Position numbers and translations under genes: made by a program. From assembly GCA_036377595.1 (NCBI GenBank), contig DASUYB010000002.1:1-35042 (forward strand): DNA of 35,042 bases, in the 5' to 3' direction. Of this stretch, positions 1,547-4,500 are shown piece after piece. The notes below the pieces were generated by a model, which saw only the letters and a program-made list of their open reading frames with translations, ran no database searches and was not told the origin of the DNA. The stretch's first letter is position 1; each line of letters begins with the position of its first letter. The DNA comes from Longimicrobium sp. Lineage in GTDB: Bacteria > Gemmatimonadota > Gemmatimonadetes > Longimicrobiales > Longimicrobiaceae.

Positions 1547-4500
1547 ACCCGACGCTGTCGATCGCCGAAGTCGAACGGATCCTCAAGCTGGCGCGCGCCG
1601 CCAGCCTGGAGCGCAGCGCGCCGAAGAGCTCTCCCATCGTGCCGGTGGAGCGGGGCGGGCGGCTGGCGCTCTCCTTCGCCCAGCAGCGGCTCTGGTTCCT
1701 GGAACAGCTGGGGGAGCTGGGGAGCACCTACCACATCCCGCTGCAGCTGCGGCTGCGGGGGGCGCTGGACCGTGCGGCGCTGGCGCGCGCCCTGGAGCGC
1801 ATCGTGGCGCGGCACGAGTCGCTGCGCACGGTGTTCGTGCCGGTGGACGGCGAGCCGGAGCAGCGCATTCTGCCGGTGGAGGCGAGCGGCTTCGGGCTGG
1901 TGGAGCACGACCTGCGCGGCGAGCCGCACGCCGAAGCAGAGGTGGAGCGCCTGGTGGCCCGCGAGGCGGACGCGCCCTTCGACCTCGAACGGGGGCCGCT
2001 GGTCCGCGCGCGCCTGGTCCGCCTGGCGGACGACGACCACCTGCTGCTGGTGACCATGCACCACGTGGTTTCCGACGCGTGGAGCATGGGGGTGTTCACC
2101 CGGGAGCTGAGCACGCTGTACGCGGCGTTCAGCCAGGGGCATCCCGATCCGCTCCCCGCGCTCCCGGTGCAGTACGCCGACTACGCTGCCTGGCAGCGGC
2201 GGTGGGTGGAAGGCGAGGTGCTGGACGCGCAGGCGGCGTACTGGACGCGGACGCTCGCCGGCGCGCCGGAGCTGCTGGAGCTCCCCACCGACCACGCGCG
2301 TCCCGCCCGGCAGGACCACGCGGGCGCCGCCCTGCGCGTGGAGCTGGGCCGGGAGCTGACGGCGGGGCTCACGGCGCTCGGCCACCGCCACGGCACTACC
2401 CTCTACATGACGGTGCTGGCCGGGTGGGCCGCGGTGCTCGCCCGGCTCTCGGGCCAGGACGACGTGGTCGTCGGCACCCCGTCGGCGAACCGCGCGCGGC
2501 CCGAGGTGGAGGATCTGATCGGCTTCTTCGTCAACACGCTGGCGCTGCGGGTGGACCTCTCCGCCCGGCCCGGCGTGGCGGAGCTGCTGGCGCAGGTGAA
2601 GACGCGCGCGCTGGAGGGGCAGCGGAACCAGGACATCCCGTTCGAGCAGGTGGTCGAGCGCCTGCGTCCCGCGCGGAGCCTGGCGTACAGCCCGCTCTTC
2701 CAGGTGATGTTCGCCTGGCACAACGCGCCGGGCGGCGCGCTGGAGCTGCCGGGGCTGCAACTGTCCCCCGCGGACGCCGGCGCGCGCGCCACGGCCAAGT
2801 TCGACCTGCTGCTGTCGCTGGGGGAGGCCGGCGGGCAGCTCGTGGGCGCCGTGGAGTACGCCACCTCCCTCTTCGAGCGCTCGACGGTGGAGCGCTGGGT
2901 GGGCTACCTGCGCGCGGTGCTGGAGGGGATGGCGGCGGACGACGGCCGGAGCGTGGACCGCATCCCGATCCTCCCCGAAGCCGAGCGCGCCCTGGTGCTG
3001 CGGGAGTTCAACGACACGCGGCGGGAGTACCCGCGCGACGTGTGTGTCCATGAGCTGTTCGAGGCGCAGGTCGCGCGCACGCCCGGCGCGGTGGCGGTTG
3101 GGTTCGAAGGCGAGCGGGTGACGTACGCGGAGCTGAACGCGCGGGCGAACCGGCTGGCGCACCACCTCCGCGCGCTGGGCGCCGGTCCGGACGTGCGCGT
3201 GGGGATCTGCATGGAGCGCAGCGTGGAGATGGTGGTGGGGCTGCTCGGCATCCTCAAGGCCGGCGGCGCCTACGTTCCGCTCGACGCCAGCTATCCGGTG
3301 GACCGGCTCCGCAACATGCTCGAGGACAGCGCTCCGGCCGTCCTCCTGACGCACCCGCCGCAGGCCGCCACCGCCGCCGCGCTGTCGGCGGGGTCCGCCA
3401 TCCCGGTCCTCGATCTCACCGGCGACGCGGCGTGGGCGGACCAGCCGGAGACGAATCCCGGCCGGGAGGGGCTCGGACCGCAGAACCTGGCGCACGTGCT
3501 TTTTACCTCGGGCTCCACCGGGCGCCCCAAGGGGGTGATGCTGGAGCACGGGAGCCTGGTGAACCGGCTGGCGTGGATGCAGGACCGGTACGGGATGGAG
3601 CCCGGCGAGGCGCTGCTGCAGAAGACGCCGTTCTCCTTCGACGTCTCGTTCTGGGAGTTCTTCTGGCCGCTGATGGTGGGCGCCCGGCTGGTGATGGCGC
3701 GCCCCGGCGGCCACCGCGACCCGGCGTACCTGGCCGCCACGATCCAGGCGGAGCGGATCACCACGGCGCACTTCGTCCCCTCGATGCTGCAGCTCTTCCT
3801 GGAGCACCCGGCGGCGGAGCGCTGCACGGGGCTCCTCAGGGTGCCGGTGAGCGGCGAGGCGGTCTCCGCGGCGCTGGTGCGGCAGTTCCACCGGCGGCTC
3901 CCCGGCGTGGGTCTGTACAACCAGTACGGGCCCACCGAGTCGGGCGAGGTGACCGAGTGGGCGTGCGACCCCGGCGCGGAGCGCGTTTCCATCGGCCGGG
4001 CGATCCACAACTCGGCGGTCTACGTGCTGGACCGTGCCGGCGAGCCGGTGCCCGTGGGGGTGGCCGGCGAGCTGTTCATCGGCGGCGTTGCGGTGGCGCG
4101 TGGGTACCTGGGCCGGCCGCGGCTGACGGCGGAGCGCTTCGTCCCCGATCCCTTCGGCGAGCCGGGCGCGCGGCTGTACCGCACCGGCGACCTGTGCCGG
4201 TGGGTGGAAGTGCGAGGGTGCGAAAGTGCGAAGGTGCGAAAGTCTGACGGTGACGACAATTCGCGCGAGGCCGATTCTACTCTCGCACTCTCGCACTCTC
4301 GCACTTTCGCACTGGAGTACCTGGGGCGCACCGACTTCCAGGTGAAGATCCGTGGCTTCCGCGTGGAGCCCGGCGAGATCGAGGCGCGGCTCGCCGCGCA
4401 CCCGGGCGTGCGCGAGGCGGTGGTGCTCGCGCTGGACGACGGGGCCGGCGGGAAGCGGCTGGTGGCGTACTTCGTGGGCGAGGCGCTGGAGAGCGAGGCG

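Follow-up and report, generated by a model that had tools for sequence, protein, structure and literature searches.

A coding hairpin of 8-nucleotide units at one fixed site in nonribosomal peptide synthetase adenylation domains of Longimicrobium

A palindromic repeat cassette of tandem 8-nucleotide (nt) units is found in frame in nonribosomal peptide synthetase (NRPS) genes of Longimicrobium sp. (assembly GCA_036377595.1). The DNA analysed, termed the window, is a stretch of 35,042 nt from contig C2 (DASUYB010000002.1) of this genome, G000, a draft of 7.2 Mb in 208 contigs. The cassette occupies a single codon position in the linker between motifs A7 and A8 of adenylation (A) domains and belongs to a family of short hairpins dispersed in the genome. 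The initial annotation of the window, which was made from sequence alone, described one element in one A domain; this is corrected here to a cassette at one fixed site in at least ~65 A domains that appears to move between paralogues. Totals of carriers come from genome searches and are lower bounds. The cassette is probably a palindromic repeat that the protein tolerates; it would have settled in a permissive turn on one or a few occasions and spread from there between paralogous A domains through short-tract recombination.

The window encodes a 2218-amino-acid NRPS protein with two modules, each of a condensation, an A and a peptidyl carrier protein domain (C-A-PCP). Pfam finds two each of Condensation, AMP-binding, AMP-binding_C and PP-binding, and both A domains carry a hairpin cassette. 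The features are as follows.

1543-8199, + strand: open reading frame (ORF) of the 2218-amino-acid protein, from the ORF call and Pfam domains
4177-4203, + strand: A7 motif and start of the linker (YRTGDLCRW), left flank of the first cassette
4210-4241, + strand: 5′ arm, four GTGCGARR units, GTGCGAGG GTGCGAAA GTGCGAAG GTGCGAAA
4242-4280, + strand: loop of 39 nt, with a CGCGCGAGGNCGA core that is found again in other cassettes
4281-4312, + strand: 3′ arm, four YYTCGCAC units, TCTCGCAC TCTCGCAC TCTCGCAC TTTCGCAC, complementing the 5′ arm
4312-4356, + strand: LEYLGRTDFQVKIRG, A8 motif, right flank of the cassette
7466-7494, + strand: second cassette, 5′ arm of GTGCGGRA-type units
7495-7515, + strand: second cassette, loop of the CTGGATCCACGCGAGGACGAA type
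7516-7544, + strand: second cassette, 3′ arm
10927-11013, + strand: uninserted A7-A8 linker of 29 amino acids in the following NRPS protein, for comparison

The reading frame stays open across the first hairpin. The linker that contains it comprises 60 amino acids vs exactly 29 in the uninserted A domains of the genome found by motif, and the insert thus adds 31 residues, precisely the approximate number first proposed. The coding hairpin of 8-nt units in the A7-A8 linker is confirmed, with its units, coordinates and open frame as originally described. The second hairpin, which had been missed, is a diverged copy at the equivalent linker of the next module (7466-7544), with units GTGCGGRA/GTGCGGGA. 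A two-unit pattern, GTGCGNRRGTGCGNRR, has nine matches in the window vs 0.05 expected by chance. The 103 bp segment folds as RNA at -60.8 kcal/mol vs -34.5 for shuffled sequences (z = -7.8), and pairing of the arms is perfect within the GTGCGA part and loose within the RR/YY part. When halves are swapped between cassettes, little folding energy is lost (-0.536 vs -0.567 per nt). Pairing therefore follows from the unit consensus, and arm-specific covariation was rejected as an interpretation. Rfam gives no match within the window.

The genome is unusually rich in NRPS genes, with 117 matches to PF13193, the C-terminal A-domain family. Linkers were measured from YRTGD to VKIRG by motif scanning of its NRPS regions. 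Among the 82 A7-A8 linkers found, 61 are of exactly 29 residues and 21, of 52-66 residues, display the hairpin. Its position is constant, between RW and L(E/D/Q), at the same codon throughout. Three further carriers escaped the motif (C192:5849, C192:13733 and C65:23172), which brings the total in this genome to at least 24 A domains. Four congeners, G312, G180, G286 and G395, carry the cassette at the identical codon. An assembly artefact is very unlikely, since the same insert recurs at the same codon in five separate genomes. No cassette was found in A domains among the matches listed for 11 genomes from the family's other genera. The cassettes vary in length from +9 to +84 residues, and loops differ among copies.

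The hairpin is by no means confined to the A-domain site. A three-unit pattern has 376 matches across the genome and none in a reversed control, and full hairpins are scattered across many contigs, some of them built of GTGCGGAA or GTGCGTGA units. Uniqueness of the element to its site, which had been named as an observation that would speak against the initial annotation, is itself refuted by these copies. Congeners share intergenic hairpins with similar loops, e.g., GTGCGTTGGATCCGCGCGAATCTGACGCAC. Of 37 arrays sampled outside NRPS genes, none is in a clearly supported reading frame and two are borderline. Six ORFs overlapped a sampled array, and the three that have Pfam domains all have them starting well beyond the hairpin. 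Gene orientation around intergenic copies was also considered and dropped, as two analyses disagree and one is biased toward stop-free flanks. Across 395 sampled genomes of the phylum, only this genus has the hairpin pattern. Among named matches, the richest is a Gemmatimonadetes MAG (metagenome-assembled genome), whose DNA has stretches roughly 65-80% identical to that of the whole genus, consistent with placement of the host in Gemmatimonadota.

Hairpins with 8-nt units are also found in metagenome-assembled genomes (MAGs) labelled Phycisphaerales, Flavobacteriales, Acidobacteria and Bacteroidetes (L064, L066, L069, L071, L072, L076, L077 and L079). No A-domain linkers are nearby at these loci, and the hairpins may represent convergence, transfer or binning error. 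Other inverted repeats are present in the window. One, at 18205-18284, consists of 9-nt units, ACGGAGGAA / TTCCTCCGT, with arms of 34 nt that are 94% complementary and a loop of 12 nt, and lies at a predicted-gene border. Another, at 21409-21486, has 8- to 9-nt units, ACGCGGAGA / TCTCCGCG, just 3′ of the ORF at 19551-21371. These two hairpins suggest several unit families in one genome. At 16514-16594, directly downstream of an NRPS gene that ends in a thioesterase, two 40-nt arms separated by 1 nt form an imperfect inverted repeat.

Evidence that cassettes are copied between A domains comes from nested elements. In congener G312, the hairpin loop of 12 linkers, which are 87-113 residues long, houses a second palindrome, CCCTCCCCCAG...GGGGGAGGG. 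The DNA of these 12 cassettes is 86% identical (81-92%) while the protein identity of the A cores that carry them averages 44%. Among non-nested cassettes, cassette and core identity are uncorrelated (r = 0.02). In G000, the second palindrome, followed by ...CGAGCC, is found alone in two A domains, where it lies in frame within the C-terminal subdomain. The loci are the following.

G312, C65 and C152 (L118, L119, L121-L123): nested second palindrome
G000, C65:49607-49683 and C65:53144-53256 (L022): lone second palindrome

Cassettes that are more alike than their host domains are not explained by vertical inheritance. A single ancient insert, inherited through module duplication without lateral copying and lost many times, would fit the recognisably homologous loops of many cassettes and the slight clustering of carriers, both on the A-domain tree and by gene cluster. 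With the nested cassettes so much more similar than their cores, and with each loss having to leave behind a linker of exactly 29 residues, in most cases with its xDG turn, this history is very improbable indeed.

The A-domain tree displays the same scatter of carriers. On a tree of 78 A domains, 14 gains or losses are needed, 12 of them forced by strong branches, and shuffled labels need 18.8. Mean core identity is 0.426 between pairs of carriers and 0.422 between pairs of non-carriers, and likewise the same between the two groups. Two A domains with cores that are 86% identical differ in the presence (C108:69219) and absence (C108:48912) of the insert.

A flanking codon provides a second marker of copying. 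AGA constitutes 0.1-0.4% of arginine codons in the NRPS genes examined. Directly before TGG, just outside the left edge of the cassette, it is found in 16 of 54 carriers vs none of 81 non-carriers (p = 9e-8). Similarity of the flanks returns to background ~30-45 nt from the cassette. Together with the AGA marker, this points to a transferred tract that consists of the cassette plus a few codons.

These markers also bear on whether each cassette represents an independent insertion of a mobile hairpin, one similar to a miniature inverted-repeat transposable element (MITE) or a repetitive extragenic palindromic (REP) sequence, with a transposase acting in trans and a strong preference for A7-A8 DNA. 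The copies dispersed in intergenic DNA are consistent with such mobility, as are a unit-like GTGCGGTGG within some native linkers and the presence of Y1 transposases (Y1_Tnp) in nine of ten congeners. Y1 transposases are found, however, in congeners with and without the hairpin pattern alike, and the printed intergenic copies do not have a constant flank. Independent insertion does not explain 12 cassettes with an identical second palindrome nested in the same loop, nor a rare codon outside the element that travels along, and is considered unlikely.

The A core and the C-terminal subdomain meet at this site, and the repeat is common to many paralogous sites. The cassette could be envisaged as a landing pad for recombination, where the two parts would be exchanged more readily and peptides diversified as a result. 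Recombination of A domains is known in NRPS evolution, with reported boundaries at A2 and A5/A6 (PMC9205934). Exchange across the cassette site was assessed by the agreement of nearest neighbours on either side, which is seen in 23 of 52 carriers vs 25 of 74 non-carriers (p = 0.27). The proposal is unsupported by this comparison and is very unlikely.

At the protein level, the insert is weakly constrained. The ratio of nonsynonymous to synonymous changes (pN/pS) is 0.59 for the insert, which places it between the A core (0.40) and random changes on the same cassettes (0.70). Selection for frame, as first proposed, holds only trivially, in that the ORF stays open, and the peptide itself is little constrained. 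The GTGCGARR unit, as read from its sequence, is stop-free in all six frames, so that a gain of units would be harmless provided that total length is a multiple of three. The region forms a short turn in NRPS structures that have been solved; phmmer matches end at query residues 405-410 and the alignments shown restart at 445, and the chains aligned have nothing that corresponds to the insert. An AlphaFold2 model of the window A domain, based on an alignment of only the four A domains of the window, has a mean predicted local distance difference test score (pLDDT) of 49, and no structural claim is made from it. A count of in-frame TGA codons in the arms was dropped as circular, as only open linkers had been collected, and the ratio of nonsynonymous to synonymous substitution rates (dN/dS) for the 75 downstream codons was set aside for want of an indel correction.

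The A7-A8 linker adjoins the A8 hinge region of A domains, and a role under selection may be considered, in which the insert, as a flexible linker, would change how the C-terminal subdomain swings relative to the A core or affect a contact inside the megasynthase. No hairpin was found at any other place inside genes in the NRPS DNA read, and some clusters are nearly saturated. Carriers make up 8/10 A domains in C65, 9/15 in C108, 0/16 in C79 and 0/11 in C175 (the two C192 carriers are outside this tabulation), and 8/9 in cluster C152 of G312. Against such a role stand the variable insert lengths, the differing loops, a pN/pS that is near random and the closely related A domains that manage without a cassette; it is regarded as quite unlikely. 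A concentration of carriers in certain clusters is expected from local copying plus module duplication.

Tolerated spread by short-tract recombination, the interpretation that is favoured here, would proceed as follows. The source family consists of short palindromic repeats of the form (GTGCGnRR)n - loop - (YYnCGCAC)n, dispersed and mostly intergenic in the genus. One or a few copies probably entered the A7-A8 turn of an NRPS A domain, a turn tolerant of 20-85 extra residues, with gain from the uninserted state as the presumed direction. The cassette would then have been copied sideways to the same codon of other A domains, most likely by short-tract ectopic recombination (gene conversion) among paralogous A-domain genes, for which the repeat arms and the strong conservation of A7 and A8 at the DNA level would provide the anchors. 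Frame-breaking copies would be removed by purifying selection. The second palindrome would have inserted into some cassette loops and spread along with the cassettes. Tolerance, as opposed to function, is suggested by the weak constraint on the peptide.

Several points weigh against this interpretation. No transfer was caught with an identifiable donor, recipient and exact tract ends, and the tree alone cannot separate gains from losses. The repetitive arms inflate cassette identity, so that the case for copying depends chiefly on the AGA marker and the nested cassettes. Some of the AGA carriers are related to one another, such that the p value overstates their independence, and apart from AGA the raised similarity beside the insert is modest. 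In addition, the uneven distribution among clusters indicates that module duplication inside clusters accounts for some of the pattern. A more specific formulation is possible but doubtful, namely that the cassette is a site-specific, coding, protein-tolerated selfish hairpin that takes a few flanking codons along as it homes to a single defined turn of paralogous A domains, with the conserved motifs as homing arms, and that serves as host to a second palindrome.

The Rickettsia palindromic elements (RPE), to which the initial annotation compared the hairpin, are found between genes and within the reading frame of 19 genes, one of which was shown to yield a working enzyme (PMC2229807). Both are palindromes of ~100-150 bp with a long stem-loop, intergenic and in-frame copies, and tolerance by the protein. 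The window element, at 103 bp and z = -7.8, is close to the ~105-146 bp palindromes with a long stem-loop of RPE; other cassettes are shorter or longer. RPE, however, are scattered over 19 or more unrelated genes, whereas the Longimicrobium in-frame copies in the NRPS DNA read occupy a single site in a single domain family and are copied with flanking bases; none of the 37 arrays sampled elsewhere is in a clearly supported frame. The 8-nt tandem units and the nesting also differ, a distinction drawn from described features, and the host, with its NRPS-rich genome, belongs to a group other than Rickettsia. The comparison is apt as an analogy, in that a similar coding hairpin is tolerated. By this analogy the element appears to work like an RPE, though not classed as one, and would be a variant of a known phenomenon.

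Bacterial MITEs with fused ORFs (Correia/NEMIS, ERIC and YPAL; PMC2229807) are likewise small, non-autonomous intergenic repeats with occasional in-frame fusions. In the Longimicrobium element, the number of units varies per copy, and neither a terminal TA nor a target-site duplication is shown. The C108:69219 and C108:48912 pair, which is a comparison of paralogues only, displays a replacement of GACGGCTCG and not a duplication. REP sequences and bacterial interspersed mosaic elements (BIME) are also high-copy, short and mainly extragenic palindromes (PMC3733652), but the present element has longer arms of tandem 8-mers and coding copies. In 20 printed intergenic flanks, read by eye, there is no constant tetranucleotide tag of the REP/BIME type (GTAG or CGTC), which in those elements marks the foot of the hairpin. 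REP/BIME elements with RAYT are associated with a Y1 (TnpA REP) transposase, and Y1_Tnp is present in nine of ten Longimicrobium congeners irrespective of the hairpin pattern. The short tandemly repeated repetitive (STRR) heptamers of cyanobacteria are dispersed and at times found inside genes; they share a short tandem unit with the hairpin, which differs in its 8-nt unit and its two inverted arrays. Interrupted A domains also have extra sequence between core motifs, in that case methyltransferase and similar folded catalytic domains, mostly between A8-A9 or A2-A3. The A7-A8 insert is instead a short repeat-encoded segment, and Pfam shows no extra domain. A literature search yielded no report of palindromic inserts in A domains, and none of repeats in NRPSs of Longimicrobium.

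Rickettsia and a few other bacteria have coding palindromic repeats, known there as single, scattered insertions. In Longimicrobium, one fixed site of a multi-copy domain is filled at least ~65 times in one genus, and copying is therefore traceable. Exchange of very short tracts between A domains can be followed with the cassette as a natural marker. A turn that accepts 20-85 foreign residues is of practical use to NRPS engineers. A caution also applies to A-domain models and specificity predictors, which are confronted in these genomes with long linkers encoded by repeats.
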